Assembly: GCF_000346505.1 (NCBI RefSeq)
Contig: NZ_ANOH01000188.1
Span: 1 to 45,019 of the forward strand
Reading direction: 5' to 3'
From: Aporhodopirellula sallentina SM41
Lineage (GTDB): Bacteria; Planctomycetota; Planctomycetia; Pirellulales; Pirellulaceae
DNA length: 45,019 nucleotides
Shown here: piece after piece, positions 4,578 through 44,030 of the stretch
Layout: every line of letters starts with the position of its first letter
Position numbering within the stretch: the stretch's first letter is position 1
Translations under genes and position numbers: made by a program
Notes under the pieces: generated by a model
The model's database searches: none
Seen by the model: only the letters and a program-made list of their open reading frames with translations
What the model was told of the DNA's origin: nothing

Positions 4578-4804
4578 CCACAACGTCCTCGATCGTTCGT
4601 CTAAACCGAAATATCACGCCACCGGTTTCGTCACCTTCGGTGTCCGCGGAAACGGAAGCTCATCTCGCGCCCAAGCAAACCTGCAATGCACTGCGGTTCG
4701 AGCATGGCCGCGTCGACAGGGAATGCCGCTTGCACGCCCCCTCCCTCGACGGGTACGATAGAGACTATTGAAGGACTAGATCGTATCCCAGAGAAAGCGT
4801 TCCC

Positions 4805-7012: not shown

Positions 7013-7330
7013 CACCAGGAAAGACGGGGCATGTGTGAACGAGTTTACTCCGCAGGCTCATTAAATGGCTCGGCGGAGTGCGGCGACACTGACCGGTTCA
7101 TTTCGCAGTGAGAGCGAGAGGTCTCCACAGAAACCGCACTCAATCACGCATTTTCAGGGGGCATCTCGTTGTAAAGACGCAAGAGCCCATTAGAACTCAT
7201 CAGCCGAATGGCGTTAGCCGCGGTTTCGTTGTGGCAACCCGGGCTGCCGCCTTCCGGCTAATTGGTTTGCCGACGTTTTCTTGTTGGTTCTAGGTCTTTG
7301 GACGTGCGGGCTTCGAACCATTTAGCTTTG
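7013..7330. other. Convergent spacer without supported gene
   Basis: These 318 bases separate the end of the caspase-like gene from the end of the peroxidase gene, which converge. I found no credible gene and no classical hairpin-plus-T terminator. AGCCGAATGGCGTTAGCCGCGG near 7201-7223 contains a small imperfect dyad (GGC-GTTA-GCC) of a type that may be a dispersed planctomycete intergenic repeat; that is from memory and needs a genome search. Confidence 0.4.
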
Positions 7331-10300
7331 TTAAACTAGGCTTGAAACCAATTGGAAGTCGACTTCTTCTAAGACTTGGTTTCCTTCGAAGAACCACACG
7401 TCTTGGTAGGTTCCGCCGCTGAGTGCTGTCCCGCCGTGATAGCGTACCTGGACGCGGTAGGCGCCGGTCTTGGTAATTTGCGTGAACTCGTAACTGCCGT
7501 CACTCGCGAGCGACGACGTGGCGACGAGTTGTCCGCCGCCGTTGTACAGTTCGACATCGAGATCACTCAGTATGGCCGGAGACAAACTGCCGCCGTCGAC
7601 AACAACCTGCCCACGCACCACACCCCACATATGAAAGACATCCTCTTGCAGTGCGTGGAGTCCTGTGTTGCGCGATATGATGTCGCTCAAGGAAGTCGCA
7701 TGAACGACATTGATGACATCCTCGGGAAGTGAATTCTCGTACCACAAGCGATCTCCATCACGTGTTCGCGTGAACTGATCGGCGATGATGGTCGTGAACG
7801 TTTCTCCGATCGAACGATTCTCACCGGCGTCTTCGGCGAGGCCGCCAACCCAGAGATCGATCTGATCAACACTGCCGTAAAGGTTCCGCAGCGTGTTTTG
7901 GAGTTCGACGTTGCTGGTGATATCCGCAAAGTCATCGACGCGTGCGAGACCGTAGGCTTCACGTGTGGAATTGTAGTCGGCGAGCCCGTGATCTCGGCCG
8001 CGATTGATGTTCAATGAAGCTAGGTCAAAACCGCCACTGCCGGGTGCACCGAAGAGGAAATTTCGCAGCGAGTCAACGATCTGATTGTCGATCGTCTGGG
8101 TTTGCGTCGAAGCGACAAACTTCAGCGATGAATCAATCCCGTACTGCTGCAGAACGGACGGATTGAAAAACGCCTCGGCCAACGTGATCTCGTCGTGGAC
8201 CGGATTGCTATACGTGTCCATGAATTCGAGCGAGTCGTTGATCATCGTGTGCCCCACCCGATACGCGGCGGTGGAAAACTCCGTCGCGATTCCCGGATTC
8301 ACCTCGGGGCGATACCCGGTATAGGCGTCGATAAAATCTCCGCCGAGCAACGCAGGCAAGAACTCATTGAACGTAATCGATTGAACTTCCGCGATGACAA
8401 TCTCGCGGGCCCGTTGGTAGAGTTCCTCGTCGATGAGTTCAGGTGCATTCGCCTGCAACAGGCCTGCCCAATAGTTGTGTTCGCGAACAAACAAGGTATG
8501 CATGGCTGTCAGGCTGACGTTTTCCATCGCACGAATATCGCCGGCGAGGAACCCGCCGTCTTCGTCAACCGGCAGCAAATCGTCGCCGCTGACTCGCATC
8601 CTGCCCCCGGAAAACTCCCGCAACGATCGGGCTTGTTCGACCGAACTGCCATAGATCATCGATCCGTCGATATAGGCGGAGATCATGTTCGGATGCTGCA
8701 ACGGGTTTGACGTGTCGGTGCCTGTCCCAGGAACAGTTTGAGACCGCGTCATGCCGATCGTCGCATTTCCGGTACCCGCCGGATCGAAGAAGGGGTCACC
8801 CAATGGAACTTCGATCGGCATCGCTTCGCCGCCGTGTTCAGGAGGCTCGGTCAGATCCATGTCATGGTCGATGAACTGTCCCCAAACGTGAACGAGCGCC
8901 GACATGGCTTCGGGGTTTCCATACGAATCGGCTGCCTGCGACACAACCGCATTGCTGATTTCTCGAGCCCCCGGCAGCCCGTCGCTCACCGGAGTTGAGA
9001 CACCGTCGGCATAGCGAGCGTCTGCCATCCGCAACAACTGGGAATCGTTCGCTCCCCAATCAAGATGCTGCAAATGATTGTTGGCCCCATCATAAGTTCG
9101 CGTCGTGGCGGCAAATTGGAAATAGCCGACCGCGTGCAACCATTCGTCGCCGCGATACCCCGTTACGATTCCGTCTTCCGACTTCCACGTGCCCGTTGAA
9201 AGCACATCGGAAGCCTCCGTTTCGTAGGCGGTCCCATCGATCATGATCTTGTCGACAATCAGATTCTTGTCGAATTGGTCGGTGACGCTGCCGTCGAGCA
9301 AATGTACACGAACCTGATTCGCATCCACGGCTGTCTCGGACGCGTAAACGAACGTGCCGAAGTCTCGTGACGCGACGTCGCCGCCGGTGTTCTGCCACTC
9401 CTGCACGACTTCGCCATTGATCGACAACTGCATCGTTTCGGTGCCGGTGTGACCCGCCGCGTAAATGGTGACGAAGTGATCGGCACTGCGAGCGGACTCG
9501 GAGTATTGGAAATATCCGTTGGCGTGCAACCACTCCGATTGCGGATTGCCGGGCTCGATGCCGACACCTTCACGCCATGTACCGGTGGAGAACACCGAGT
9601 CCGATTCGGTTTGATACTCTACCCCGTCAACGACCAACCGATCGACGACAAGGTTGCGATCGAGTTGACCGGGTAGGTAGAGGTCGTTGTTGAAAACGAC
9701 TCGAATTCGATCGGCCGATACCGGTGAGTCGTTTTCGTATTGGTAGGCCGCGAACTCATTGTTTTGAACGTCGCCGCCAATGTTCGACCACTCTGCGACA
9801 GTGTTGCCATCGATTTGCAATTGCATGGATTCACTGCCGGTGTGCCCGGCGGCGAAGACCGTGATCGGAAGAACCGCTGCGTACCGCGTTTGAAACTCTT
9901 TAGACAGCACGACGCTCGTTTCAATGTCGCCGACCTGCGTCTCCATCACCCAATCGCCGCCACGTTGACGATTGCCAGTCACATCGTTGGACGCAGCCAC
10001 ATCGGCAGCGGTGAGTTCCGCGAGCGTGGCAACCAATCGGTTGCCCTCATCGCCCGAGGCCACATTGCAACCATAAAGCAATATGTCCGAATCCTCGGTC
10101 AGCGACATGGCCCAACGACGAACGCTCGCCGCGTTCTGCCGCAACGCGTCACGGTCAACGATCCGGTTGCCGATCTCGATGCGTCCGTCGTCACCATGGC
10201 TGATGATATGCACACTGGAAACATCGCGGCGCTGACTCAACGCATCGGTAATTTGAGCCAACCCGTCCTCGTCCGCAGACAACAGCACCACGTCGGCGTC

Positions 10301-10621
10301 CGCGGAAACAGCCTCTTCGATCAGTGAGACGTCTTCCACGCGGCTATCGATAAACACGACCTGCCGCGCGACAAAATCAACCGTAGTCCCCGCGCTATCT
10401 CCACCATCGGTAATTGAACCGGTCGTCGAAGCCGGCTCGCCGTGTATCGCCGCGTCGACGGCGACACCCGCATCACCGGCGAGCATCAGACGAGGCTCCA
10501 ATGCAATCGGCGGCTCAAGCGGGTACGAATTCGACCGGGGCGTGCCCGAACGTTTTTTGCCTGCCTGTTTGCGACTCGAGCGGTTCGCTATCGCGGCGTG
10601 CCTACGGAAACTTTGAAACAT
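7331..10621 (-). CDS. LEPR-XLL / DUF4347 / CBM60-like / animal-type haem peroxidase protein
   Basis: This 1096-residue secreted protein is modular. A basic N-terminus leads into IALEPRLMLAGDA (40-52), the LEPR-XLL motif of large planctomycete surface proteins. Residues 87-247 fit DUF4347 (FIDSRVED, HIISHGDDG, LLYGCNVASGD). Residues 255-373 and 385-503 are two copies of a module resembling calcium-dependent CBM60 domains (FAAGHTGSESMQLQ; YAAGHTGTETMQLS; EWLHANGYFQ). Residues 508-990 are an animal-type haem peroxidase: distal Gln582, Asp585 and His586 in WGQFIDHDMDL, Arg697 and Glu700 in GDIRAMEN, proximal His791 in RVGHTMI, and NINRGRDHGL. Asp585 and Glu700 match the residues that link covalently to haem in myeloperoxidase. 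Residues 1005-1090 look like a carboxypeptidase-regulatory or SdrD B-type repeat. All active-site positions are present, so peroxidase or halide oxidation is likely. The ATG at 10621 lacks a strong ribosome site. It converges with the caspase-like gene. Confidence 0.9.
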   Translation of the reverse strand: MFQSFRRHAAIANRSSRKQAGKKRSGTPRSNSYPLEPPIALEPRLMLAGDAGVAVDAAIHGEPASTTGSITDGGDSAGTTVDFVARQVVFIDSRVEDVSLIEEAVSADADVVLLSADEDGLAQITDALSQRRDVSSVHIISHGDDGRIEIGNRIVDRDALRQNAASVRRWAMSLTEDSDILLYGCNVASGDEGNRLVATLAELTAADVAASNDVTGNRQRGGDWVMETQVGDIETSVVLSKEFQTRYAAVLPITVFAAGHTGSESMQLQIDGNTVAEWSNIGGDVQNNEFAAYQYENDSPVSADRIRVVFNNDLYLPGQLDRNLVVDRLVVDGVEYQTESDSVFSTGTWREGVGIEPGNPQSEWLHANGYFQYSESARSADHFVTIYAAGHTGTETMQLSINGEVVQEWQNTGGDVASRDFGTFVYASETAVDANQVRVHLLDGSVTDQFDKNLIVDKIMIDGTAYETEASDVLSTGTWKSEDGIVTGYRGDEWLHAVGYFQFAATTRTYDGANNHLQHLDWGANDSQLLRMADARYADGVSTPVSDGLPGAREISNAVVSQAADSYGNPEAMSALVHVWGQFIDHDMDLTEPPEHGGEAMPIEVPLGDPFFDPAGTGNATIGMTRSQTVPGTGTDTSNPLQHPNMISAYIDGSMIYGSSVEQARSLREFSGGRMRVSGDDLLPVDEDGGFLAGDIRAMENVSLTAMHTLFVREHNYWAGLLQANAPELIDEELYQRAREIVIAEVQSITFNEFLPALLGGDFIDAYTGYRPEVNPGIATEFSTAAYRVGHTMINDSLEFMDTYSNPVHDEITLAEAFFNPSVLQQYGIDSSLKFVASTQTQTIDNQIVDSLRNFLFGAPGSGGFDLASLNINRGRDHGLADYNSTREAYGLARVDDFADITSNVELQNTLRNLYGSVDQIDLWVGGLAEDAGENRSIGETFTTIIADQFTRTRDGDRLWYENSLPEDVINVVHATSLSDIISRNTGLHALQEDVFHMWGVVRGQVVVDGGSLSPAILSDLDVELYNGGGQLVATSSLASDGSYEFTQITKTGAYRVQVRYHGGTALSGGTYQDVWFFEGNQVLEEVDFQLVSSLV

Positions 10622-10857
10622 GAGAGTTCGTCGTGTGGAGTGGAGGTCAGACTCCCGGGCGGGAGCCCCTCAATATAGTCGCCCACAAAGCAGGGGGCGT
10701 TGATTTTCACCGCCCCGAGCACACGCAACCTCAACACCTCGTGCGTCACGCATACGCAAAATCTGCGATTTGGCGTGTCCGTTCCTTGTTGCTGAATTCG
10801 CCCGATTCCCGGTCACCGAATTCTGGCGTCATCGACAACCATCGTCGGGAACATACC

Positions 10858-11922
10858 TTAGCGGGCCGGTGGTGGTGGCAGGTTCAACGTCGAAGCGTCT
10901 GCCGTGAGAGCCACCTGGTAGTGCTTCAGCAGGCCGAAAACCGATTGAAACGCCGGTTGCGACGACAAATCTTTGTAGCGTACGTCGCTCGCGACGGTTT
11001 GGAAACGCAACACAACCTCCTGCAACTCCTCCGCAGACGGATGGGGACCGCCGACAAACAGACTCGGCGGCAACGCGAGATACGATCGCCACTGCGGATC
11101 GAGCAGCACGTCGAGTTGCGGGGCGAGTTGTTCGAGCTGGTTCCGCAGGACGTCGGTCTCCTGCGCACCATACTGTTGAGCCAACGCGCCTGGGTTGGAC
11201 GCGTGAGGCGTACTCGGGACCGCGTTTGCGTTGTCGACCGGCGGCACCGTCGTGGGCGGCGTCGCTAGCGATGCGACCGCGAAAGTCAATTGCTGGGCCA
11301 ATTCCGGCACGACAACTGGGCCACCCGGGACCGCAGGCCGGTAGTAATCCCCCGTCGCCAATTGGTCCACACTTAGCACCGATCCGTCGATCGACACACC
11401 GGCGAACAACCCACGGCTGCGCGAGTAAGAATAGATCTCCGCCTTCAACATCGCATCGGTCGCGACGGCACCTTGGCGACCGACCGGGCCCGCCGCCGCG
11501 GCCACATCAGCACCGAGGGTCATCTTGCCCTCCAAGATGTTCTGCACGCTGCGTTCAGTCTTGAATACCAGAACGATGTCCGACGACTGCACGCCCGCCT
11601 GCCAGCCCACGTTTCCTCCCGTAAGGGTGATGAATACCGGGGCGTGCCAGACACCGTCCTTTTCTCGCACGAACAGCAACCCACGGCCGTGTCGTGCCCC
11701 GACGATGAAGCCGCCTTTGATCACGTCCGGAATAATCGCCACGCCATGAGCATCATTCAACATCGCATGCGGCACTTTGCTCAGCGGACCGACGAGCACC
11801 TCGTTGAGAACCACCGAAGCGGCTTGAACGGTTTGCTCCTGAACGACCTGCGCCGAAGCCGGTTTCGGCGTGACCGCGATGGCGAAAGCAAACATAATCA
11901 AACAAAAACCAGCACGATCCAT
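10858..11922 (-). CDS. SYLF-domain (Ysc84/DUF500) lipid-binding protein, exported
   Basis: This 354-residue protein starts with a signal peptide (1-25, cleavage after PASA) and a SYLF domain over about residues 27-195. Diagnostic segments are VPHAMLNDAHGVAIIPDVIKGG (46-67, with KGGFIVGARHGRGL following), FITLTGGNVGWQAGVQSSDIVLVF, LGADVAAAAGPVGR and YSYSRSRGLFAGVSIDGS. SYLF domains bind phosphoinositides in eukaryotes; in bacteria the ligand is not settled. The region after about 200 is Pro/Ala-rich and then helical, without a domain I recognise. AAGGAAAG lies just upstream of the ATG at 11922, supporting the start. The peroxidase gene lies 236 bases downstream on the same strand, far enough that co-transcription is uncertain. 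An outer-membrane or periplasmic location follows from the signal peptide. Confidence 0.88.
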   Translation of the reverse strand: MDRAGFCLIMFAFAIAVTPKPASAQVVQEQTVQAASVVLNEVLVGPLSKVPHAMLNDAHGVAIIPDVIKGGFIVGARHGRGLLFVREKDGVWHAPVFITLTGGNVGWQAGVQSSDIVLVFKTERSVQNILEGKMTLGADVAAAAGPVGRQGAVATDAMLKAEIYSYSRSRGLFAGVSIDGSVLSVDQLATGDYYRPAVPGGPVVVPELAQQLTFAVASLATPPTTVPPVDNANAVPSTPHASNPGALAQQYGAQETDVLRNQLEQLAPQLDVLLDPQWRSYLALPPSLFVGGPHPSAEELQEVVLRFQTVASDVRYKDLSSQPAFQSVFGLLKHYQVALTADASTLNLPPPPAR

Positions 11923-17223: not shown

Positions 17224-20200
17224 TCAGTGATGAACCGTTCTGTCCTCCACCGGATGATCCTGATGGATCGCATTTGAGCCGGATGCAACCTCGGTGTCGT
17301 CGATCGGTGGCGGCATTTCCTTTTGCTCGCTACGCGCCCTGGCGAGAAAACCGTTGATTTCTTGAAGCGTATCCAACAACTGTTCGGCATCGGAGTTCGC
17401 CACCGCCAACTCGCCATTGCGGGCCAGTTGCGAGAGTGGATCGAGCCCGACCGAACCGCCTGTTCCTTTGATCCAGTGCAAACTCCGTGAAACCTCGTCG
17501 AGGTCTCCGGCGTCGTTAGCCTGCAGAATCTCGGGAAGTTTTTCGGACACGCGGTCCACGAATTCACACGCAAAGCTACGCAACCAATCGTCCGGCAACA
17601 CTGTTTCGCTGAATCGCCAGTCGCGTTGAGGCGTTTTCTCGATCGATTCGAATTTCGGCGAATGCATCATCGGGGCCATGCTCATCGGCACGTCGCTACC
17701 GTCCGATCCGAACGACGCGACACTCTCACAGTTGTCCACGCCCGCCGATGCGTCGTGAACCAGGTTCAACAAGGCGTTCAGGTCAATCGGTTTGGCGAGG
17801 TATCCCGTGCAGCCTGCTTCACGGCAACGTGCCTCGTCGGCTTGCATAGCGTTTGCGGTGATCGCGATGATGGGTTTGCTAAATCCGATCGCACGCAGTT
17901 GGCTCGTTGCGGTGTAGCCGTCCATGACCGGCATCTGCATATCCATCAAAACCACGTCCACCTCGAGTTGATCTGAGACCAACTGATCGATCGCCTCGTG
18001 CCCGTTGGCTGCGGTAAAGACAACTCCGCCGGAATCTTCCAGCAACAGCGTGATCAGATTACGGTTGGTCTCACTATCGTCGACGACGAGAACTCGTGTG
18101 GCAGGCAACGCAACGCGAGCGAACTCTTTCTTGACTCCCTCTTTGGCCATCACCATCGCTTCGTTAGGCGACAACATTTCGGCTCCTTCGGCAGCCTCGA
18201 GCGGCAACAGCAAACTAAACCGCGTGCCGACATCGAGTTGGCTCCAAACCGTCAATTCCCCGCCGAGCGCGTCAGCGAGTCGTTTGCTGATCGCCAGACC
18301 GAGACCGGTGCCGCCGTACTTGCGAGTCGTCGATGTGTCGGCCTGAGTGAACGGTTCAAAGATCTTCTGCAACTGCGTCGGGGTCATGCCGGTTCCGGTA
18401 TCGTTGACCGACACGACAAGGTGCGTGGGCGATTCCGCCGAGCCTTGGGTATCGAGCACGATCGAAACGCCGCCCTCATCGGTAAACTTGATCGCGTTGC
18501 TGACGAGGTTGCTGATGATTTGTCGGAATCGCGTCGGATCGCTGATCATCTCCGAAGGCAATGGAGCGTCGACTTGGATTTGCAGGTCGATTTCTTTTTG
18601 AATCGCTTTGGATTGCAGCGATGTCACGACTTCACCGACCAAGTTCGACGGGTTGCATGGCACATACTCGGGAACAATCTTGTCGGCTTCGATCTTCGAG
18701 ATATCAAGAATGTCGTTGAGCAGGTTGAGCAGGTGCGTTCCGTTGGAGTGAATCGTTTGCAGATGCGAATTCCGGCTTTCTTCGTCGGTGACGACGCCAC
18801 GCAGCAGCAACTCGGCAAAGCCCAGGATGCCGGTAATTGGTGTTCGAATCTCATGGCTCATTCTTGCCAGGAATTCGCTCTTGGTCGCGTTCGCCTCCTC
18901 GGCCGCTTCCTTGGCGAGTTCGAGTTTGTCTTTCGTCGCCCGCAACTGACTCGCGGTTCGCTCGAGTTCCCTCGAACGCTGCACGACCGTCATTGTCCGT
19001 TCATGGATTCGGGCTTCGAGAGTCTGGTTGAGGTCTTGCAGTTTCTGAAAACTGTCCGCCTTTTCCAACGCAGCACCGGCGGCGGACGTCAGGTAGTCGG
19101 CAATGCGAACTTCGTCGTCGTCGAACAAACCCGAGAAGCGTTGGTTCGTCAGATACAGGTACGCGACGACCTCACCGTTGATGTCGATCGGGCTGCACAG
19201 GAACGTGCCTTCGCGAACCGACGTCACTCCTCGTTCGGAAATGTTCTCGACGTCACGGATCACGGTCGCGTGGGTAGTACGCGATTCGGCGACGAGCTTC
19301 TCGTCATAGAGCTGCCCGGGCGGGCTCGTCAACGGTGCTTCGTGGGGTGCCGTTTCAAAGACAATGAACACGTTCTCACCGCGGAGAATGCGTTTCGCCG
19401 CATTGCAAACCTCGACGTGAATATCATCCGGCACGACGGTGGTTGCAATCCGTCGTCCTGATGCGAGCAGAGAGTCGAATCGGTCGATCAGCGAGAGTGA
19501 TGCCTGTTCGTTAACGAGCTCTTTGGATTGACGCACACCGGCGAGCAAATCCAACGCGGCCTTGTAATCGGCATCGTCGTATGGCAATGACTGCTCGATG
19601 CAGAACTCGCACATTTTGACGACCGACAAAGCGCGTTCGACCGTCGCGTCCTGCCGGCTCGCTTCCTCGACGCTGCGATGATAATAGGCCAACGCCAATT
19701 TTGGTTTTTCCGCAATCGCATAGGCCGCCGCCAACTCACGCAGTGCATGTGGCAGTTCGTTCGTGTAACGATTTCCGATCGCGACCGCCTTCTTCGCGGC
19801 TTTGATGAGCGCAATGATATGTTGCCGTCGCGCTTTTCGCGTTCGACACGGTTTCGTTTCGAACACACGCCGCATCGCTGAACACAACCATGCGTAGCAC
19901 GGACTGATGTACGTGTTCTCGACGGAGGCTTCTTCGGCGGTCAGGATCGCTTTTTCAAACAGCCCCACCGCGTTCGTGTAACGGTCTTGGTAGAATTCCC
20001 GAACGCCTTTTGCAAGCAGCACTTCGCAGCTTCGTTGAGGATCGAACACGTCACGTTCGAGTTCCGTTTGGATGACATCGTAGGGAATGTCGCCCATCGC
20101 CGCGCGAGCCCAGACATCGACGATGTTCCCGGTCGCCTGGAAGTCACCGCGTTTGACGGCGGATTGATAATTGATTTTGGCGAGCCGGACAGCTTCACCG

Positions 20201-23200
20201 AGATTGCCCAACCGGTAGTGCGACGCGGCCAATTGGTAACGCGCGATGTGCACTTCCCAGTAGTCGCCGGTCCGTTCCAAAACATCGACGGCCTGTCGAG
20301 CCTGGTCGACGCACTCCTCGAAACGCGAGAACGAATACAACAGGATGCTGAGGAAGTTACGCGATTGCCCTTGGCCCCAAACGTCATCGAGTTCACGACG
20401 CATTTCGAGTGAGCGTTTGGCATAGCTGACACCGCGGCTCTCCCACCGCAGCAACGTCATCACCGGAGCGTGTTCGGAATACGACTGAGCAACGTAGCGG
20501 TTGACCGGATAGTTCTCCGACCGGTTCATGCCGCGGAGGTGTGCCCACAGCGTGTAGTATTTGTCGCGGGTGTACCAGTACGCGTGAGCGATCTGGCTAT
20601 ACAGCGACAAGGACATCTTTTCCGCTTCGGTCAGCGGCTGGTGATTGCGGCCGCAGCGTTTCGGAAAAACACTGTTACGTGTTTGACGAAGCACCTCCAC
20701 CACGAGGTTCCACCACAACTGCAAACGCGAATCGCAGACAGGTTGACCGAGCTGCGTCAGAGCGGCTTCGAAATACGAGACCGCTTGGTCCTTGTTGCCA
20801 CGTTTGAACGACAGTTCGCCACGTTTCAATGCGACCTTGGCGTTCGCAGTGTCATCGCCGGCGGTACGCGACGCACGATCCAACCAAACGTCAGTATGGT
20901 CATAGCGGCCCTGCAGGATCAAAACGTCGGCCATCATCATTTGGATGTGATGGCGTGTCGTAACGTCCGCAAACGCGATCGCACGTTCTGCGATGCGGAG
21001 CTGCGTTTCGGCGCTCTCGTGTGAGAAACTTTTCCGTGCCGCCTCGGCGGCTTTGAGTGCGTAAGGCAGAGCCTGCTGATGCAACTGTGCCGCATCGAAG
21101 TGATACGCGAGTTCGAAATACTTCGTCGGTGTGTTTGTTTCGAGATAGCGTCCCATTTGTCCGTGCATCGACCGAACCGCTTGGTCGGACAGATTGCTCA
21201 GCACCGCTTCGCGAATCTTATCATGCACGAACGAAACGACGTTGTTGGGACGGCTCCAAACGAGTCGATGGTGACGCACCGGTTTGATCGCAGCCTGTGC
21301 CTCGACCATGGTAACGCCGGCCAAGTCCGCGGCCGCGTCGAGACTGAAATCCTTCCCGATCACCGCGGCGGCAGAGAGTAGTTTTCGTGCCTCGGCGGGC
21401 AACTGCGACAACCGACTGACGAGAATTTCGCTCGCATCGTCGGCCGCTTGGAAGCTAGACAGTTTCTCGTTGTCGATTTCCCACCCATCGCCGTCGACCG
21501 TGAGAATGTTCGACTCAACCATTCCCCGCAAAACAGCCGCCGCCATGAACGGGCTGCCTTCGGCGTACTTTGTCACCACGTTGATTGCGACATCGGGCAA
21601 CTGCCCGCCCATCGATTCGGCGAGTTGACGAACCGCCGCATCAGTCAACGGTTCGAACGTCAACGTCTCTGAAACAAGCAGATCATCGAGTTCGGCAGAG
21701 GTGCTGTTTCCTTCAGGCCGCGCGACGGCGAAAAGGAACAAGTGTTTTGTTTCACTCTCGCAGATACCGGCGAGGATTCGCATCGATTGGTCGTCAATCC
21801 ACTGGCAATCATCGAGCGTCACCATCACGCAGCGATCTTCCGTACCCAGCCCCGTGATCAGGGTGCGGAACGCCATGATGACCCGTTTCTGCCCGAGCTC
21901 TTCGGGGCCAGAAATTTGTACGCTCGACCATCCGAGTGTTTTGGCCAGTTCGGGCATTGCCGTCGCGACTTCTTCGCGATAGCCCTCCATGCGGGCCGCC
22001 GTTTCAGCGCGAAGCTGCTCGTCGGTGGCGATCATTTTGGACAACTGATCGATCATCTGCAGCCACGGTGCGTTGGGCTGCTGCGCGGCGTGTTGCGAAG
22101 ACCGACCGCCGAGCAACAAGAAGCCCTTGCGGGCCGCGATCCGCGAAATCTCATTGAGCAAACGTGTCTTGCCCATCCCCGATTCGCTACGCAGCAGGAT
22201 CTTGCTCGATTGGCCGGCGATCGTTCGATCCAAGCCGTTCTCGAGCACCATCAGTTGATCGTCACGACCGACGAAAGCGGGGTCGGTCAACTCGGTTCGT
22301 TTGTCTGCACTTCCGATCACGAACCCGTGCGAATCGGAGCCGGACTCTAGATAGCCGAGGATCTGCTCGACGTCATGGAGAGCAGCGTGAACGGATTGAT
22401 AACGTTCGCGAGGTTCTTTCCGGATCATCTTTTCGACAAACCGGATGATCACCTCCGGCATGTCCTTCGGATACAAACCGAATTCCGGATCCGCCGTCAT
22501 GTGCTGGTAGAGAATCTCGCTGATCTCGCCGTCGAACGCGGGCTGGCCCGTGATCGCCGCGTGCAAGACATAACCGACCGAGTAGATGTCGGAGGCTTCG
22601 CCGATGTCGTGGTCGATGATCCCAGAGAGTTCCGGCGAGGTGTATGAGGCGCATTCGCGTCCCAACCGTGAATCACTCCCAAAAACATCGGGACACCAAA
22701 GCGGAACGTAGCCGCAGAGAACCGCTCGTCCGTCGGGCCGCATGATGATATTCGATGGACGAATATCCTTTTGGATGCAGCCGAGTTCATGAACGTGCGC
22801 CAGCGCGGTCAACAAATCTTTTGCCAACAGCATCGCTTTTCGCGCATCAAATCCGTTGCGTCGAAATTGCTGGCCGAGAGGTTCACCTTCGACGTATTCG
22901 TAAACGACCCGCAACTTCTCGTCGCGGACCTCGTATTCGATCGGGCTGGAGTAGGTTTCGCACCGGATACTCGCTGTTTGCCGGGCTTCGTTTTCAAAAC
23001 GCGTCAAACCGCCGTGATGAAAAAAGCTTTTTGGAACCTCACGCAGGATCACACGACCGAGCGAGAGCTGATCCACGGCGAGATAGCATGACACTATCGA
23101 CGCATCGGAAAGCTCTCTTAGAACGCGAAAGCGATCATCGCCGTTCGGTTCTTCGACAGGTGTGACAACGGGTTTCAAAAATACGCCCTCTTGAGTAACG

Positions 23201-23274
23201 CCGTGGAAACCTGTCCTAGTTTCAACGGCTTGGTAAGTGACCGCAGCGCTCCGGAGGGGCAAACCGAAACGCAA
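17224..23274 (-). CDS. Giant hybrid histidine kinase with N-terminal pseudokinase, AAA ATPase, TPR, GAF, REC and Hpt
   Basis: This protein of up to 2016 residues combines: a Ser/Thr-kinase-like fold (49-310); a large AAA/STAND-type ATPase (333-700; P-loop SESGMGKT 363-370, Walker B VMVTLDDCQWIDD); a long TPR-like helical region (720-1240); a GAF domain (1280-1405); a coiled coil; a HisKA domain with His1474 in ARMSHEIRTP; an HATPase domain (VSNAIKFTDEGG, NDTGTGM, GGTGLGLAIS); a receiver with Asp1778 in VVLMDMQMP; and an Hpt domain with His1933 in SLHWIKGTGG. The kinase-like part lacks key residues: no glycine loop, Arg78 for the VAIK Lys, QKDIRPSN for HRDxKxxN and CGY for DFG, so it is probably a pseudokinase. 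The phosphorelay residues are intact. No membrane helix is evident. The start is uncertain: TTG at 23274 is the longest, while TTG at 23178 has GAGGG upstream. It is divergent from the methyltransferase gene. Confidence 0.9.
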   Translation of the reverse strand: MRFGLPLRSAAVTYQAVETRTGFHGVTQEGVFLKPVVTPVEEPNGDDRFRVLRELSDASIVSCYLAVDQLSLGRVILREVPKSFFHHGGLTRFENEARQTASIRCETYSSPIEYEVRDEKLRVVYEYVEGEPLGQQFRRNGFDARKAMLLAKDLLTALAHVHELGCIQKDIRPSNIIMRPDGRAVLCGYVPLWCPDVFGSDSRLGRECASYTSPELSGIIDHDIGEASDIYSVGYVLHAAITGQPAFDGEISEILYQHMTADPEFGLYPKDMPEVIIRFVEKMIRKEPRERYQSVHAALHDVEQILGYLESGSDSHGFVIGSADKRTELTDPAFVGRDDQLMVLENGLDRTIAGQSSKILLRSESGMGKTRLLNEISRIAARKGFLLLGGRSSQHAAQQPNAPWLQMIDQLSKMIATDEQLRAETAARMEGYREEVATAMPELAKTLGWSSVQISGPEELGQKRVIMAFRTLITGLGTEDRCVMVTLDDCQWIDDQSMRILAGICESETKHLFLFAVARPEGNSTSAELDDLLVSETLTFEPLTDAAVRQLAESMGGQLPDVAINVVTKYAEGSPFMAAAVLRGMVESNILTVDGDGWEIDNEKLSSFQAADDASEILVSRLSQLPAEARKLLSAAAVIGKDFSLDAAADLAGVTMVEAQAAIKPVRHHRLVWSRPNNVVSFVHDKIREAVLSNLSDQAVRSMHGQMGRYLETNTPTKYFELAYHFDAAQLHQQALPYALKAAEAARKSFSHESAETQLRIAERAIAFADVTTRHHIQMMMADVLILQGRYDHTDVWLDRASRTAGDDTANAKVALKRGELSFKRGNKDQAVSYFEAALTQLGQPVCDSRLQLWWNLVVEVLRQTRNSVFPKRCGRNHQPLTEAEKMSLSLYSQIAHAYWYTRDKYYTLWAHLRGMNRSENYPVNRYVAQSYSEHAPVMTLLRWESRGVSYAKRSLEMRRELDDVWGQGQSRNFLSILLYSFSRFEECVDQARQAVDVLERTGDYWEVHIARYQLAASHYRLGNLGEAVRLAKINYQSAVKRGDFQATGNIVDVWARAAMGDIPYDVIQTELERDVFDPQRSCEVLLAKGVREFYQDRYTNAVGLFEKAILTAEEASVENTYISPCYAWLCSAMRRVFETKPCRTRKARRQHIIALIKAAKKAVAIGNRYTNELPHALRELAAAYAIAEKPKLALAYYHRSVEEASRQDATVERALSVVKMCEFCIEQSLPYDDADYKAALDLLAGVRQSKELVNEQASLSLIDRFDSLLASGRRIATTVVPDDIHVEVCNAAKRILRGENVFIVFETAPHEAPLTSPPGQLYDEKLVAESRTTHATVIRDVENISERGVTSVREGTFLCSPIDINGEVVAYLYLTNQRFSGLFDDDEVRIADYLTSAAGAALEKADSFQKLQDLNQTLEARIHERTMTVVQRSRELERTASQLRATKDKLELAKEAAEEANATKSEFLARMSHEIRTPITGILGFAELLLRGVVTDEESRNSHLQTIHSNGTHLLNLLNDILDISKIEADKIVPEYVPCNPSNLVGEVVTSLQSKAIQKEIDLQIQVDAPLPSEMISDPTRFRQIISNLVSNAIKFTDEGGVSIVLDTQGSAESPTHLVVSVNDTGTGMTPTQLQKIFEPFTQADTSTTRKYGGTGLGLAISKRLADALGGELTVWSQLDVGTRFSLLLPLEAAEGAEMLSPNEAMVMAKEGVKKEFARVALPATRVLVVDDSETNRNLITLLLEDSGGVVFTAANGHEAIDQLVSDQLEVDVVLMDMQMPVMDGYTATSQLRAIGFSKPIIAITANAMQADEARCREAGCTGYLAKPIDLNALLNLVHDASAGVDNCESVASFGSDGSDVPMSMAPMMHSPKFESIEKTPQRDWRFSETVLPDDWLRSFACEFVDRVSEKLPEILQANDAGDLDEVSRSLHWIKGTGGSVGLDPLSQLARNGELAVANSDAEQLLDTLQEINGFLARARSEQKEMPPPIDDTEVASGSNAIHQDHPVEDRTVHH

Positions 23275-36109: not shown

Positions 36110-38068
36110 CTAGGCATTGACCAATCGATCAATCATCCCGATCAACTTTTGACTGTTGAGTGGTTTGGTCGTGTAGTCCGTGCACCCCGCAGCGAGACAT
36201 GCGTCACGGTCGCTTTTCATCGCGTTGGCCGTCAGGGCGATGATTGGCAGGTCGCAGCCGCGTCGGCGTAGTTCGCTCGTCGCGTCGTAGCCATCCATGA
36301 TGGGCATTTGCATATCCATCACGATCAAATCGACATCGGGTTTCGATTCGTTCGAGATAAAGTCGACCGCTTCCCTGCCGTTGGTGGCTGTTAAAACTTC
36401 GCCGCCCGCTTTTTCGATGAAGTGCTGAGCCAGGTATCGAATATCACGCCGATCATCAACAACCAACACCTTCGCCGACAGTTCGATTTCGTCGCCCCGT
36501 TCCTCCGATGTCATGTCGAGCGACAGATCAGGTTGAATCAGAGGAACCCCATTGGCGACCTCAATCGACAACGTGAACACGCTGCCCACACCCGGTGAAC
36601 TTTCCACCGTTACCTCACCGCCGAGTGCGTTGGCGAGTCGTTGGCAAATCGCCAGCCCCAATCCGGTACCGCCGAATGATCGTGTTGAGGTATTGTCGGC
36701 CTGCACGAACGGGTTGAACAAAGTCTCGTGATCTTCCTCATGGATTCCGATGCCCGTGTCGGCCACCGCGAAATGCAGACGGTTGGTTTTCTGGTCAAAA
36801 TCCACCGTCAACTTCACGTGACCTTCATCCGTGAACTTGATCGCGTTGCCCACGAGGTTGACTAGGATTTGACGAATTCGAATCGCATCGGTGTTCACAC
36901 TGGCCGGCACCGGACCGTTGAACGCCACCCGCAGCGGCAGCTTCTTTTCGGCCGCACGGACGTCCATCAGGGAACGGACTTCCGCGACAATCGCCTCCGG
37001 ACGAACGGGCTGTCGCTCGATTTCGAGTTTGCCGGCATCGATCTTTGAAAGATCCAAAATGTCGTTGATGATACCGAGCAGAAAATTGCCGTTTCTGCGT
37101 ATCGTCTCAACCACCTGCAGGTTATCAGGATCTTTCAAGTGATCTCGCAGGATGTCCGCGTGGCCAATGATCGCCGCCATCGGAGTTCGGATCTCATGCG
37201 ACATGTTCGCCAAGAACTCACCTCGGGATCGGTTCGCCGCCTCTGCCGCCCGCTTCGCACGCTGCAACGATTGTTCGAACAGCTTTCGATCGGTGATGTC
37301 TTGCATCGTCCCGATCACCCGCGACGGCAAACGATTCGACTGACCTTGCCCGAAAATCACACACCCCGAGTTCACGACCCACCGGATCTCGCCACTCGGT
37401 CGAATGACTCGATGTTCGAGTTTGAAAGTTTTGGGTGCGTCAGTACACAGCAAACTCTGAAACAGATCTCGATAGCGGTCACGATCGTGGGGATGGATCA
37501 GTTCGAACATGTCGGCACGCGTGAACACGTCGGCGCTGTCGACACCAAAGATCTGATAGATTTCATCCGACCAAACCGTTTCGCTGGTCCGGGCGTCGAG
37601 ATCGTATGTTCCAAACTCGGCAGCCTTGGCGGCGACGTTCAACCGGTATTCTTTCGATCGAATCTCTTCCTCGGCGATCTGTTGCTCGGTGATGTCCACC
37701 GCCGCAACCATCCCGCTGACCGGGACTCGTTTGCCATCCACGGTTTCGAAGAAGATTCGTTTGCGAACGTTCACCCACTTGACGTTCCCGTCACGGTGTA
37801 CGACCCGGTGCTGCATCGTGAACTCACCGGTTCCGTCCGCACGCAGCGATTCTTTGACACGGTGCTCCACCTCGGCGACGTCCTCTGGGTGAATCCGCTG
37901 ATGGACCTCTTCGCGAGTCAGTCTGGTATCCGGGATGATGTCAAACAGTTCGCCCGCCTTGGCGTCCGCGACGGCGGTGTTGTCGTCGTAGTCGATCTCG
38001 ATGATGCCGAATTCGGCGACCGAAACGGCGAGCCGTAAACGTTCTTCGCTCGTGTTATTGGATCTCAC
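36110..38068 (-). CDS. PAS-PAS hybrid histidine kinase with receiver
   Basis: This 652-residue protein has no membrane helix and is probably cytoplasmic. Two PAS/PAC pairs cover about 8-132 (VAEFGIIEIDYDDN; HRDGNVKWVNVRKR) and 140-262 (AAEFGTYDLDAR; RPSGEIRWVVNSG; GTMQDITDRK). HisKA follows with His291 in LANMSHEIRTPMAAIIGHADIL, then HATPase (NLVGNAIKFTDEGH; ADTGIGI; GGTGLGLAICQRLANALGGE) and a receiver with Asp585 in LIVMDMQMPIMDGYDAT and Lys635 in YTTKPLN. Neither PAS shows the cysteine motif of LOV domains. The start is a GTG at 38068 with only a weak ribosome site. It is divergent from the CheB-CheR-LOV kinase, 703 bases away, and both proteins have similar kinase-receiver halves; a functional link is possible but unproven. 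Confidence 0.92.
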   Translation of the reverse strand: MRSNNTSEERLRLAVSVAEFGIIEIDYDDNTAVADAKAGELFDIIPDTRLTREEVHQRIHPEDVAEVEHRVKESLRADGTGEFTMQHRVVHRDGNVKWVNVRKRIFFETVDGKRVPVSGMVAAVDITEQQIAEEEIRSKEYRLNVAAKAAEFGTYDLDARTSETVWSDEIYQIFGVDSADVFTRADMFELIHPHDRDRYRDLFQSLLCTDAPKTFKLEHRVIRPSGEIRWVVNSGCVIFGQGQSNRLPSRVIGTMQDITDRKLFEQSLQRAKRAAEAANRSRGEFLANMSHEIRTPMAAIIGHADILRDHLKDPDNLQVVETIRRNGNFLLGIINDILDLSKIDAGKLEIERQPVRPEAIVAEVRSLMDVRAAEKKLPLRVAFNGPVPASVNTDAIRIRQILVNLVGNAIKFTDEGHVKLTVDFDQKTNRLHFAVADTGIGIHEEDHETLFNPFVQADNTSTRSFGGTGLGLAICQRLANALGGEVTVESSPGVGSVFTLSIEVANGVPLIQPDLSLDMTSEERGDEIELSAKVLVVDDRRDIRYLAQHFIEKAGGEVLTATNGREAVDFISNESKPDVDLIVMDMQMPIMDGYDATSELRRRGCDLPIIALTANAMKSDRDACLAAGCTDYTTKPLNSQKLIGMIDRLVNA

Positions 38069-38771: not shown

Positions 38772-41700
38772 ATGGCAGATTCCAGCACGATCGATGCTTC
38801 CATCACCGCCCCGGAAACCGAGGGCGGCAATGATCAGACGCCCGTGAAAATTCCCATCGTTGGCATCGGTGCCTCGGCTGGCGGTTTGAACGCATTGGAA
38901 ACCCTGTTCGAGCAGTTGCCGGCGACCACAGGCGGCGCGTTCGTCGTGGTCCAGCATCTATCGCCGGCATACCAAAGCCACATGAGCGAGCTGCTCGGCC
39001 GGCGCACCAAAATGAACACGTGCCAGGTGGCCGAGCGAACCATCCCCGAACCGAACACGGTTTACCTGCTGCCGCCCGGCAAGCACGTGGTGTTGCAGAA
39101 CGGGATGTTGCGTTTGCAGGAACGGGAAGATGACGGCGAGTTGAACTTGCCAATCGACAAGTTCTTCCATTCACTCGCCGCCGAAGACAAGCGACGAATC
39201 GCAGCCGTCGTGCTATCCGGCACCGGCAGCGACGGCAGCGAAGGAATTGTCAGCGTTGGCAAGGCAGGTGGACTGGTCATCTCGCAGGACGAGGACAGTG
39301 CTCAGTTCAACAGCATGCCACTCAACGCGATCAGGACTGGGTCCGTTCACGTCGTCGCACCGGTCCCCGAGCTCGCCGATTCACTGGTGCAGTATCTCGG
39401 CGGCGCTGCGGTGGATTCGGTGGTCGCGCAAACCGCCCCATCGATCGAACGCAATGATCTCGCACCGGTTTACAAACAACTCGAGAAAGCATGCGGCATC
39501 GACTTCGGCCAGTACAAACACGGCACGTTCACGCGTCGGCTGTCGCGGCGGATGATGTTATCGAAGATCGACCAACTCGATCAGTATGTCGATTACCTCG
39601 AACGTGAACCGGCGGAGCTTTCGCGTTTGGCGGACGACCTGATGATCGGTGTGACGCGGTTCTTTCGTGACCCCGACGGCTACCATCGCCTTGCCAACCG
39701 CTGCATCCGAACCGCGGCGAGCAGCAAAGCCGAGGGCGACGAATTCCGGGCGTGGATCGCGGGATGCGCAACCGGGCAGGAAGCCTACAGCATCGCGATG
39801 TTGATCCATCATGAACGCGAGAAACTGGGAATCGATTTCGCAATCAAAATCTTTGCCACCGATGTGCATCCCGACGCCATCCGATTCGCTCAGCGAGGGA
39901 TTTTCCCCGACAGTTCTCTCGCGGAAATCCCCATCGAGTTTCGCGACAAGTATTTGGTGCAACTCGACGAGGGTTTTGAGATCGAATCAACAATTCGCAA
40001 TTCGATCGTCTTCGCCCGGCACGATGTTTTGCAGGATGCGCCGTTCACCAACATGGACCTGATTTCGTGTCGGAACCTGCTGATCTATTTGGTCGACGAC
40101 GCACAGTCTCGGGTACTGAACATGTTCACCCATGCGATGCGGTCGCGTGGGGTTCTATGGCTCGGACCGAGCGAAACGCCCGGCGACCTGGACGATGACT
40201 TCGCGGTGTTGGACAAACAATGGCGGATCTTTCAAAAAGAGCGCGAGACACGTCTGCCGCTCGACCTCCGACTGCGGAAACGTCCGCCGACGAACGCATC
40301 GTTGTCGTTGCGGACACGGTCCTCGCGAGCACCGTCGGCGGCGTTGATCAGTTCGTACGACCGCCTGCTCGAACAGTATGCCCCGGCGGGCATTTTGATC
40401 GACGATTCGATGCGGCCGTTGCAAATTTTTGGAGACGTTTCGCGGTTCACCAAAACACGTGCCGGGCGACTCAATGGAACGATCGACGATTTGCTGATCG
40501 AATCGCTCCGCCTTCCCGTTGCAGTCACGGTGCAACGTCTTCGGTTCCAGCAAGCTGCGATGATGACCGAGAGCGGTGTCGTTGACGGCGAGCGGGTAAC
40601 GGTATCGGTTCGTTCGATGCATCACCCGACACAGTCGGAGACTCACTACTTCATCTCGTTCACCGAGGAGTCGCGTCAGCTTCCGGCGGCGGTGCAAACA
40701 ATCCGGCCAGTTGCGAATTTGCCGGCCGAAGGCGATCCCACGCCGGAAGCAAACGGCGAAGGCAAGATCGACTCGGCCGCGTTTCAACGCAGCACGTTGT
40801 CAGAAGAACGGATCCGCATGCTGGAAATGGATCTCGATTTCACTCGAGAAAACCTGCAGGCAACGATCGAAGAAGTTGAGACCACCAACGAAGAACTGCA
40901 ATCGAGCAACGAGGAACTCACCAGCAGCAACGAAGAACTGCAGAGCACGAACGAGGAACTACACAGCCTCAACGAGGAACTGCACACGACCAACGCCGAA
41001 AGCAGCCGGCGACTGCAGTTGCTGACCGAAATGACCCGCGATCTCGAGAACGTGATGCGGGAAAGTGACATCGGGATCGTTCTAATCGACGGCGAATTGA
41101 ATATCCGCCGTGTGACTCCCGCAGCCGCCGACATTCTTCTCATCCGGCGCAACGAAGTCGACGGCGAGAAACTCTCTGACTACGCACGCGCGTTTGAGGG
41201 CATCAATCTGGTCGAAATGATTCGCAGGGTTGAGACCGAGAACCGACCGGTCGAGTGTGAGGCAGTCGATCGACGCAATGACCCAATCCTCGTGCGTGCA
41301 GCCCCGTACCGAGAGCGTGAGGGATTCATCTTGACGATGACGAATCTCAAGAGCGTTCGGGAAACGGCCGACAAACTTCGAAAACTCACGTCGATCGTCC
41401 AAGACAGCACCGACGCGATCATCGGTGTCGACTTGAAATCCACGATCACCAGTTGGAACCGGGGAGCCAGTCGTCTGTTCAACGTCGATCTCGACCTGGA
41501 CGCTCAGGTATCCCATCAGATGCAACTCAGCGATGTGTTGCCCGAAGACGTGAGCGACGTTTGCGAGGCTTTGCTTCGTGAACTTTTGCGCAAGGGTGTA
41601 ACCGGCGAAAGGGAACTAAACACGAAAGTCGGTGACCGCCAACTCACCCTGCAAATTCGTGCGACGCCCATCCTGGATGATTACGAACGGGTTTCCGGCG

Positions 41701-44030
41701 CCGCGATCACGCTCTACGACATCACCAAAATGCGAATGGCGGAAGAGCAACTGCGGCTGCGTACTCGCGCAATCGATGCCGCTAGCAACGGGTTCCTGAT
41801 CGTTGACGCGCAGCGTGATGACATGCCGATCGTGTACGCCAACCAAGGGTTCGAAACCCTGACGGGTTACCGACTCGAAGACATCACGGGACGGAACTGC
41901 CGCTTCCTTCAAGGGCCCATAACCGACCCTGCCGACGTTCAGAAGATTCGCGATGCGATCGCGAATCAGGAGAGTTGTCGCGTGACAATTCTGAATTATC
42001 GTCGCAACGGAGAGCCGTTCTACAACGACTTGATCGTCACCCCGGTTTGCGATGTCAACGATCGCGTCACGCACTTCGTTGGCATCCAAAGCGACGTTAC
42101 GGAAGTCGTCGAAGCAAACATCGCGCTGCGAAACAGCGAGATCGAATATCGCACCACTTTCGAGAACGCCGCGATCGGTATTGCCCACGTGGGTCTCGAT
42201 GGAGAATGGATCCACGCAAACGAGAAACTCTGTCAAATCCTCGGCCGCCCGCTCGAGGAACTGAAGTCGAAGACGTTTCAAGACATCACGCATCCCGACG
42301 ATCTTCAAAAAGACATGCATCTGTTCGCACAGATGAAGCGTGGCGACATCCCAGGCTACACGCTCGAGAAACGCTACATCCGGGCTGACGGCGAAACCGT
42401 CTGGACCAATCTGACCACGTCGCTGCGCCGTGACGTCGAAGGCAAACTCGAATGCTGCATCTCGTTGGTCGAGGACATCACCGAGCGCAAACTGACCGAA
42501 CAGAAACTCGCCGCGTCGCGTGCGATCATTACCGAGGTGATCGAACAAAGCCACGACCCGTTCATCAGTTTCGACAAAGAAGGCGTGATTCAGTTCGCCA
42601 ACCATGCCGCGCGGCAACTCTCGGGCGTCGAGAGAGACCTCGTCGGCATGCAATATTCCGAGCTCTTTTCCAATCACGCCGAAGCACCGTTGGTCGCAGC
42701 CCTCGCGCGAGTTCACCTGTCTCAGAAGGGCGAAACCACGGAGTACTATTCACGCGAACTGCAGCGTTGGTACGACGCTCGCGTGTTCCCGGTCGACGAC
42801 GGTGCCGCGGTTTACATGACCGACGTCACCGGACGCAAGGAAACGGAGGCCTACCTGGAAGCCGCACGCATCGCGGCGGAAGAAGCCAGCCAAGCGAAGA
42901 GCAATTTCCTGACCAATATGAGTCATGAGATCCGGTCTCCGATGTCCGCGATTCTCGGATTTGCCGACCTCTCGCTCCGCGACCTCCGCGAAGGAAAACC
43001 GGTCGACGCGATGCACTTGGAAACCGTTATCCGAAACGGCCGTTTCTTGTTGCGGATCATCAACGACATTCTTGACCTGTCGAAAGTCGAGGCGGGCAAG
43101 CTCGACGTACGACGTTCTCGCTTCAAACTCGTCCCGATGCTGGCCGACATCAACGAGCTGATGCGGCACCGCAGCGAATCGTCTGGCGTTCCGCTCCATT
43201 TTGAATTCGTTGCCGAGATCCCACAACGGCTGCGGAGCGATCGATCGCGTGTCGAACAGATCCTCGTCAACTTGATCGGCAACGCGCTGAAATTTACCCC
43301 GCAAGGGAGCGTCCGGGTCGTCACCGAAATGGACCAGGACGACCCGACAACGGTCTGCTTCCGCGTCATCGATACCGGAATCGGCATCTCGCCCGCGAAC
43401 GTCGAACGTCTCTTCCAAACCTTCACTCAGGTGCACGATCGAAAGATCGTCGGCATGGAGGGAACCGGGCTGGGATTGGTGATCAGCCAACGGCTCGCGA
43501 ACCTTCTCGGCGGAAACATTACGGTGACCAGCGTCGAAGGTCGCGGCAGCGAATTCACGCTCTCCTTACCGGTCGACGAATCCGAAGAGATGGTCCGACC
43601 CACCGAAGCGGACTTGCGACCTCGCCGCGCCGGTGGCATGAACCTCGACAGGATCAACGCTCGCATCCTCGTTGCCGATGACGCACGTGACATTCGGCTC
43701 GTGACGACACGATTCCTGGCACGCGCCGGCGCGGACGTTTCCGAAGTCGTCAACGGTGCCGAGGCCATCAAAGCGGTACGCGATGCTGAACGAGAAGGGC
43801 GTCCGTTTGCTTGTGTCTTGATGGACATGCAAATGCCCGAACTCGACGGACGACAAGCGACGCAGCAGATTCGCAACCACGGAATCACCATCCCGATCAT
43901 CGCACTCACCGCGGGTGCGACGTCGGAGGAAATCAACGACGCCCTCGCATCGGGTTGCACCGAGTTCGTCGCCAAACCGGTCGATGCGGTCGATTTGGTC
44001 AGCCGCGTGGCCAAACTGACCGGCGGTTAG
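38772..44030 (+). CDS. CheB-CheR-PAS/LOV hybrid histidine kinase (probable blue-light sensor)
   Basis: This 1752-residue soluble protein fuses: CheB methylesterase (28-210; triad Ser35 in GASAGG, His62 in VVQHLS, Asp154 in GTGSDG); CheR methyltransferase (235-490; GCATGQEAYS, FATDVHPDAI, SCRNLLIYL); a coiled coil of repeated SSNEEL units (690-745); about five PAS modules; HisKA with His1385 in TNMSHEIRSP; HATPase (LIGNALKFTPQG; DTGIGIS; GTGLGLVISQR); and a receiver with Asp1685. The PAS at 996-1115 is a LOV domain: GRNCRFLQG with photoactive Cys1043, then Asn1042, Gln1047, Arg1060, Asn1075, Asn1085 and Gln1106. The spacing from Cys to Gln (+4), Arg (+17), Asn (+32) and Asn (+42) equals that of Bacillus YtvA. 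Flavin binding and blue-light sensing are therefore likely, with output through the phosphorelay or the Che domains. The ATG at 38772 has a weak ribosome site. Confidence 0.93.
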   Translation: MADSSTIDASITAPETEGGNDQTPVKIPIVGIGASAGGLNALETLFEQLPATTGGAFVVVQHLSPAYQSHMSELLGRRTKMNTCQVAERTIPEPNTVYLLPPGKHVVLQNGMLRLQEREDDGELNLPIDKFFHSLAAEDKRRIAAVVLSGTGSDGSEGIVSVGKAGGLVISQDEDSAQFNSMPLNAIRTGSVHVVAPVPELADSLVQYLGGAAVDSVVAQTAPSIERNDLAPVYKQLEKACGIDFGQYKHGTFTRRLSRRMMLSKIDQLDQYVDYLEREPAELSRLADDLMIGVTRFFRDPDGYHRLANRCIRTAASSKAEGDEFRAWIAGCATGQEAYSIAMLIHHEREKLGIDFAIKIFATDVHPDAIRFAQRGIFPDSSLAEIPIEFRDKYLVQLDEGFEIESTIRNSIVFARHDVLQDAPFTNMDLISCRNLLIYLVDDAQSRVLNMFTHAMRSRGVLWLGPSETPGDLDDDFAVLDKQWRIFQKERETRLPLDLRLRKRPPTNASLSLRTRSSRAPSAALISSYDRLLEQYAPAGILIDDSMRPLQIFGDVSRFTKTRAGRLNGTIDDLLIESLRLPVAVTVQRLRFQQAAMMTESGVVDGERVTVSVRSMHHPTQSETHYFISFTEESRQLPAAVQTIRPVANLPAEGDPTPEANGEGKIDSAAFQRSTLSEERIRMLEMDLDFTRENLQATIEEVETTNEELQSSNEELTSSNEELQSTNEELHSLNEELHTTNAESSRRLQLLTEMTRDLENVMRESDIGIVLIDGELNIRRVTPAAADILLIRRNEVDGEKLSDYARAFEGINLVEMIRRVETENRPVECEAVDRRNDPILVRAAPYREREGFILTMTNLKSVRETADKLRKLTSIVQDSTDAIIGVDLKSTITSWNRGASRLFNVDLDLDAQVSHQMQLSDVLPEDVSDVCEALLRELLRKGVTGERELNTKVGDRQLTLQIRATPILDDYERVSGAAITLYDITKMRMAEEQLRLRTRAIDAASNGFLIVDAQRDDMPIVYANQGFETLTGYRLEDITGRNCRFLQGPITDPADVQKIRDAIANQESCRVTILNYRRNGEPFYNDLIVTPVCDVNDRVTHFVGIQSDVTEVVEANIALRNSEIEYRTTFENAAIGIAHVGLDGEWIHANEKLCQILGRPLEELKSKTFQDITHPDDLQKDMHLFAQMKRGDIPGYTLEKRYIRADGETVWTNLTTSLRRDVEGKLECCISLVEDITERKLTEQKLAASRAIITEVIEQSHDPFISFDKEGVIQFANHAARQLSGVERDLVGMQYSELFSNHAEAPLVAALARVHLSQKGETTEYYSRELQRWYDARVFPVDDGAAVYMTDVTGRKETEAYLEAARIAAEEASQAKSNFLTNMSHEIRSPMSAILGFADLSLRDLREGKPVDAMHLETVIRNGRFLLRIINDILDLSKVEAGKLDVRRSRFKLVPMLADINELMRHRSESSGVPLHFEFVAEIPQRLRSDRSRVEQILVNLIGNALKFTPQGSVRVVTEMDQDDPTTVCFRVIDTGIGISPANVERLFQTFTQVHDRKIVGMEGTGLGLVISQRLANLLGGNITVTSVEGRGSEFTLSLPVDESEEMVRPTEADLRPRRAGGMNLDRINARILVADDARDIRLVTTRFLARAGADVSEVVNGAEAIKAVRDAEREGRPFACVLMDMQMPELDGRQATQQIRNHGITIPIIALTAGATSEEINDALASGCTEFVAKPVDAVDLVSRVAKLTGG

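Follow-up and report, generated by a model that had tools for sequence, protein, structure and literature searches.

In bacteria, CheB and CheR normally serve as the enzymes that tune chemotaxis receptors. Within these receptors (MCPs), Glu/Gln pairs occupy heptad positions b and c at intervals of seven residues, with small residues close by, and the strict methylation consensus reads small-small-x-x-E/Q-E/Q-x-x-small-small; Gln residues in MCPs are deamidated by CheB, and the methylation helices sit in antiparallel bundles. LOV domains require their adduct Cys for photochemistry, and those that bind flavin can also respond to redox state. A study on R. centenum (PMC2890560) reports a CheB-CheR hybrid, RC1_3878, and, separately, a LOV kinase; cheBR fusions are counted in a Geobacter table in PMC8396549. 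Section 2.2 of PMC4844311 reports 1390 bacterial LOV proteins, about half of them kinases, and names no CheB-CheR class. The accessible parts of PMC8508746, PMC5812497, PMC6532209, PMC12826048, PMC1183210 and PMC3543383 do not describe a CheB-CheR-LOV kinase, and the open literature that we covered, which stops short of the large LOV censuses, yielded no description of such a kinase or of a methylated coil in such fusions.

The window analysed here, a stretch of 45,019 nucleotides that makes up the whole of contig C188 of Aporhodopirellula sallentina SM41, contains an open reading frame of 1752 amino acids (38772-44030, plus strand, as are all its features below) whose domain order is certain: CheB-CheR-coil-PAS-PAS-LOV-PAS-PAS-HisKA-HATPase-REC. 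CheB, CheR_N, CheR, HisKA, HATPase_c and Response_reg all passed the Pfam cut-offs, as did PAS_10, PAS_9, PAS_3 and PAS_4; the Pfam models PAS_9, PAS_4 and PAS each counted four stretches, and MCPsignal was absent from the Pfam matches of the protein. Like Brucella LOV-HK, YtvA and Meiothermus ruber Mrub_1259, the protein has a LOV core with adduct Cys and contact residues and a HisKA-type kinase output, and its LOV-PAS tandem resembles that of Brucella construct 6pps. Unlike these, it fuses CheB, CheR and a coil, and places two PAS domains between LOV and kinase.

Just upstream of the fusion gene lies a divergent PAS-PAS-HisKA-HATPase-REC hybrid kinase (36110-38068, minus strand). Further away are a 2016-aa protein with a Ser/Thr kinase domain, an AAA ATPase, a histidine kinase, a receiver and an Hpt domain (17224-23274, minus strand), a 735-aa protein with a caspase-like (Peptidase_C14) domain (4805-7012, plus strand), and a protein that combines DUF4347 and CBM60 with a haem peroxidase domain of the animal type (7331-10621, minus strand). 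A second CheB-CheR hybrid kinase of the same genome seems to be split between contigs (L056, 6927-7916 at the end of C82; L053, 3-5459 at the start of C444); its C444 frame contains the coil and lacks the LOV motif. Where neighbour families recur in at least three loci, the large families consist mostly of kinase genes or of frames that overlap the fusion gene itself.

The preliminary description had placed a LOV photosensor inside a CheB-CheR hybrid histidine kinase. This was borne out, and all of the tested catalytic and flavin-site residues are present. Both sequence and fold identify residues 999-1111 (41766-42104; PAS_9 best at 1006-1111) as a canonical LOV domain. Direct reading found GRNCRFLQ with the adduct Cys1043 encoded at 41898-41900, and the flavin-contact residues at Cys+4 (Gln), +17 (Arg), +32 (Asn), +42 (Asn) and +63 (Gln). 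Compared with the distances that we take to hold in Bacillus YtvA, the last Gln lies two residues later, as had been proposed; consistent with this, phmmer aligned query residues 20-131 to residues 5-114 of 2pr5, a span two residues shorter. The printed phmmer alignments to 9vf7 and 8qi9 are gap-free. A profile search of the isolated segment returned PAS_9 at E 1.6e-22, and a search of the PDB returned 155 sequences at E≤0.001; of the 60 matches listed, 9vf7 (Meiothermus LOV) was best at 2.4e-37, with phototropin LOV1 and YtvA near behind. The NCBIfam model YtvA_fam scored 152.7 bits on residues 998-1125, under its whole-protein cut-off of 250. A structure model built from 19 aligned sequences had a pLDDT of 88.2 and a pTM of 0.76. 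In this model, made without flavin, Cys1043 (model residue 59) begins a short helix, and all 50 Foldseek matches listed are LOV or LOV-derived structures, including 9vf7, YF1 (4gcz) and YtvA. Together, the PDB sequence matches and the Foldseek matches ruled out a chance PAS similarity.

The two enzymes that precede the LOV domain are likewise well preserved. The CheB methylesterase domain (residues 30-205, 38859-39386; Pfam E 1.7e-50) has the triad Ser35, His62 and Asp154 in an alignment to 1chd. Pfam found no receiver domain ahead of it in the window protein, the CheB domain starting at residue 30, and what is present is therefore the CheB catalytic domain, not a whole CheB. The CheR portion comprises an N-terminal helical domain (CheR_N, residues 235-280, 39474-39611) and a SAM-binding methyltransferase domain with its conserved residues (residues 294-485, 39651-40226; Pfam E 1.8e-45), for which 5ftw was the top match by sequence and by fold. 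The CheB triad is kept in all 95 aligned rows, in which the window gene is counted twice (as itself and as L010). Four of the five CheR positions are also kept in 95/95 of these rows; at the fifth, Gly331, 33 rows have Ala and one has Cys.

Is the fusion confined to this locus? A search for the same CheB-CheR-LOV-HK order in other genomes, as the preliminary description had suggested, yielded 20 proteins, the window's included (the window, L042, L043, L060, L061 and 15 loci of its family). The 19 further proteins, of which L162 and L163 are near copies and L061 is cut off within the kinase, show that the fusion is neither peculiar to one genome nor an artefact of assembly. All 20 share the Cys and the residues at the five flavin-contact positions. 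In a sample of the phylum, 60 of 392 genomes matched at E≤1e-15 (78 rows listed, two from the own genome); two of the 13 rows fetched, out of 76 non-self, are CheB-CheR-LOV fusions (L042 and L043), and the phylum count is at least two because several unfetched rows lie in fusion-length frames. Of 119 genomes from the family to which the window belongs, 25 gave matches at E≤1e-20 (35 rows listed). CheB, CheR, LOV, HisKA, HATPase and REC share one frame in 15 of the 20 loci fetched from 34 non-self rows, the 14 unfetched rows lying in frames of at most 1011 aa, and the fusion order thus occurs in at least 16 of the 119 genomes sampled, counting the window's.

We scanned genome contigs with a coil-to-LOV alignment and took the best 80 loci among the matches listed. 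CheB, CheR and coil share one frame in 75 of these 80, and CheR and coil in 77, features in which the window protein resembles these CheB-CheR fusion sensors of many phyla. Unlike those sensors, it has a LOV domain with the Cys motif, found in only two of the 80 CheB- or CheR-bearing frames of at least 500 aa (L060 and L061, both planctomycetes); other frames carry a LOV-like PAS without the Cys. One of these, a Burkholderiales CheB-CheR protein (L063, 3949-9033), has Pro at the adduct Cys position. LOV matches occurred in 63 of 398 Pseudomonadota genomes (E≤1e-24) and 56 of 194 Cyanobacteriota genomes (E≤1e-20). Among these 592 genomes, none of the 39 listed LOV matches in frames of at least 1250 aa is a CheB/CheR fusion, and the coil pattern, CheB and CheR are absent from all 39, although misses are possible given that at most 10 (Pseudomonadota) or 21 (Cyanobacteriota) candidates were scored per genome. 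At L169, in a pseudomonadotal genome (G904), a gene with a LOV match (4278-8324, minus strand) lies beside a divergent CheB-CheR-coil gene (8559-11585, plus strand), the two being neighbours and unfused.

A CheB-CheR tree of the 95 rows, built by a quick method, places the LOV fusions in two groups and needs two LOV changes after relabelling of L010, which is the window gene truncated ahead of its LOV domain. Holding the 20 LOV rows as one clade was not rejected (p-AU 0.826) and the constrained tree scored higher, with a single origin remaining unproven. Many independent gains of the LOV domain were discarded as an account, since two changes suffice on the quick tree and a single clade was not rejected.

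On either side of the LOV domain the window protein carries further PAS domains: PAS_10 (residues 758-853, 41043-41330) and a second PAS read from the sequence with approximate bounds (about residues 873-980, 41388-41711) before it, and PAS_3 (residues 1147-1231, 42210-42464) and a kinase-proximal PAS_4 (residues 1258-1356, 42543-42839) after it. These lead into HisKA (residues 1375-1442, 42894-43097; phospho-acceptor His1385, codon 42924-42926), HATPase_c with DTGIG and GTGLG boxes (residues 1490-1602, 43239-43577) and the receiver (Response_reg, residues 1632-1746, 43665-44009; Asp1685, codon 43824-43826), the His, G boxes and Asp of a hybrid histidine kinase all being present. The distance from the Asp of the LOV D-x-T motif to the phospho-acceptor His is 34 residues in all nine proteins where LOV abuts HisKA, 277 in all five with the window-type two-PAS insert, and 158 (n=1), 166 (n=4) or 167 (n=1) in the remaining fusions. 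In the window protein it is the last PAS that lies 34 residues from His1385 (Asp1351). A PAS Asp stands at 34 from the His in nine of the 11 fusions with a PAS between LOV and kinase; the motif search found none at this distance in the other two, L152 and L156. Because 34 is the usual spacing in hybrid kinases of this kind, it indicates ordinary coupling and not a special feature.

Between CheR and the first PAS lies a coil of six heptads (residues 699-740, 40866-40991), mostly N-E-E-L-x-S-S/T, with Glu-Glu at b and c. Judged from sequence, these pairs at exposed heptad positions appear to resemble MCP methylation helices, as do the small residues nearby. Unlike MCPs, the fusion has no MCPsignal domain, carries the enzymes in the same chain, is expected to form a parallel coil, and has an e position that is mostly not small. 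Anchoring on STNEEL lost four of the 95 rows and left 83 distinct coil segments, some of the rows being shifted by whole heptads (L152, for example). With the retrieval and anchor columns left out, the b and c cells of these segments hold Glu in 493 of 498, Gln in four and Ala in one. Entropies range over 0.00-0.28 at b and c, 0.28-2.41 at e, f and g, and 0.00-1.04 at a and d. In the tested columns b and c are more conserved than e, f and g (Mann-Whitney p 3.5e-4) and than a and d (p 0.02), values that are optimistic owing to the relatedness of the rows and to the selection of coils by a pattern that asks for Glu at b in at least three consecutive heptads and thereby favours it there.

Most rows were retrieved through the coil pattern, which makes its presence in them circular; among the 22 rows found otherwise it is present in 20 (window gene counted twice), and the two that lack it, L012 and L056, represent the same gene, truncated where its contig stops. 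The pattern is missing from four of 99 CheB+CheR frames, all of them either truncated at the end of a contig or locus or split. The strict MCP-type consensus matches the window protein once, at 717 inside the coil (TSSNEELQST), and the MCP of the own genome at 629 and 769. Of the 95 rows, with the window gene counted twice, 14 carry it in the coil, against two matches in 125,343 residues elsewhere; the other 81 miss it because e is seldom a small residue, a point against the coil as a methylation site. A relaxed form, defined once the coil had been inspected, matched 366 times within coils and 77 times outside them. L161 and L164 have Gln at one b position of the coil.

Coiled coils that join signalling domains are common (the signalling helix), and a role in assembly or in signal transfer might by itself explain the conservation of the coil. 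On this account it would be only a signalling or dimerisation helix whose Glu pairs bind partners, with CheB and CheR scaffold-like or acting on other proteins. The coil is the most conserved segment in six of seven compared pairs, at 94-98% identity, which fits any structural role too; in the exception, L155/L158, the receiver and the short LOV-HisKA linker exceed it. The fusion coil is probably a parallel dimer, whereas MCP methylation helices are antiparallel, a point against self-methylation. However, a purely structural role does not readily account for b and c being conserved above e, f, g and a, d (by those same optimistic p values from related rows), for the far greater variability, at most positions, of the helix that links PAS to HisKA in 34 of these proteins, or for a CheB triad unbroken in 95/95 rows. 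We consider a coil with no methylation role somewhat unlikely.

The preliminary description had also stated that the window lacks chemoreceptor genes. This holds for the window, an MCPsignal search of the whole of contig C188 being negative, but not for the genome: a genome-wide search located an MCP on C121, along with a partial one on C406. CheB and CheR genes stand beside the C121 MCP, and CheW matched on C121 and C81. Searches of 19 of the 20 fusion genomes (all but that of L061) found an MCPsignal match in 14, the window's included (13 of 18 others), and a CheW match in 14. Both were without a match in the same five genomes, G499, G432, G476, G427 and G266, which are listed as 97-99% complete; as controls, the same models matched in seven of 14 genomes, E. 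coli and B. subtilis included. G499 is a single contig of 7,145,576 bases.

In two of these five genomes all CheB and CheR matches are confined to fusion frames: both in G499 (frames of 1647 and 1770 aa holding both) and all three in G266 (1561, 1716 and 1836 aa). In G427, two frames (1771 and 1623 aa) combine CheB and CheR, and two shorter ones, 160 and 99 aa long, match CheR. G432 has CheR frames of 1390, 1389, 375 and 297 aa and CheB frames of 2098, 1390, 1389 and 189 aa, and G476 has CheR frames of 1446, 1380, 1374 and 326 aa and CheB frames of 1446, 1380, 1374, 189 and 59 aa. The short CheR and CheB frames besides the fusions in G432 and G476, and the two short CheR matches in G427, speak against MCP independence. 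The CheB and CheR motifs in the LOV fusions of the five MCP-free genomes are as intact as in the others. In the comparison of L161 with L164, whose genomes are both MCP-free, dN is 0.11 for CheB and 0.17 for CheR while synonymous sites are saturated or nearly so, a pattern indicative of purifying selection on the two domains; dS is saturated or close to it in most pairs, which makes dN/dS ratios rough. That MCP-free genomes keep the module, and that the coil has Glu pairs, goes beyond the preliminary description.

These genomes bear on whether ordinary chemoreceptors are the substrates of CheB and CheR in trans, with light tuning chemotaxis through MCP methylation. The module could serve MCPs in the window genome and in the 13 of 18 others where they are present; counted together, MCP and CheW both matched in 14 of the 19 fusion genomes. 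The active-site residues tested in CheB and CheR remain intact, which also counts in favour. Against it, the residues are still kept in the five of 19 fusion genomes without MCP and CheW, and the own genome (G000) has separate CheB and CheR genes beside its MCP. Action in trans on chemoreceptors is improbable in our estimate. Since the fusion enzymes are kept where no chemotaxis receptor was found, they probably act on something other than MCPs. The five genomes without an MCP or CheW match mean that the methylation target need not be an MCP, and we predict MCP-independent methylation with somewhat better than even confidence. That the LOV domain, since flavin LOV domains can respond to redox state, is a flavin-bound redox sensor, or else a structural PAS, rather than a light sensor is very improbable given an adduct Cys kept in 20/20 proteins.

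We slightly favour reading the protein as a hybrid histidine kinase for blue light that contains its own methylation module, one independent of chemoreceptors. Blue light would form a flavin-Cys1043 adduct, as the residues and fold suggest. The resulting change would pass through helices of fixed spacing and the two PAS domains to the HisKA helix; the spacing is observed, the flow of signal predicted from it. Kinase output would be altered, with transfer to the C-terminal receiver and then an onward relay. That the protein is a LOV-gated kinase is the part that we predict with high confidence. CheB and CheR, with their tested active-site residues kept, could adapt the sensor by reversible glutamate methylation, for which the likeliest targets would be the protein's own Glu-Glu coil or a partner kinase; the own coil is a candidate that we put forward tentatively. 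More generally, it is possible, though somewhat doubtful, that in CheB-CheR fusion sensors, light-sensing or not, the adjacent coil is methylated by CheR and demethylated by CheB in cis, a one-protein adaptation circuit that the planctomycete LOV domain would turn into a self-adapting blue-light sensor without a chemoreceptor.

Fusion genomes without a detected chemoreceptor remove the textbook substrate of CheB and CheR and leave a small set of testable targets, of which the conserved Glu-pair helix in the same chain is the first candidate. Because the LOV domain offers a clean on/off input, light could be used to control the system in vitro while kinase state and methylation are monitored.
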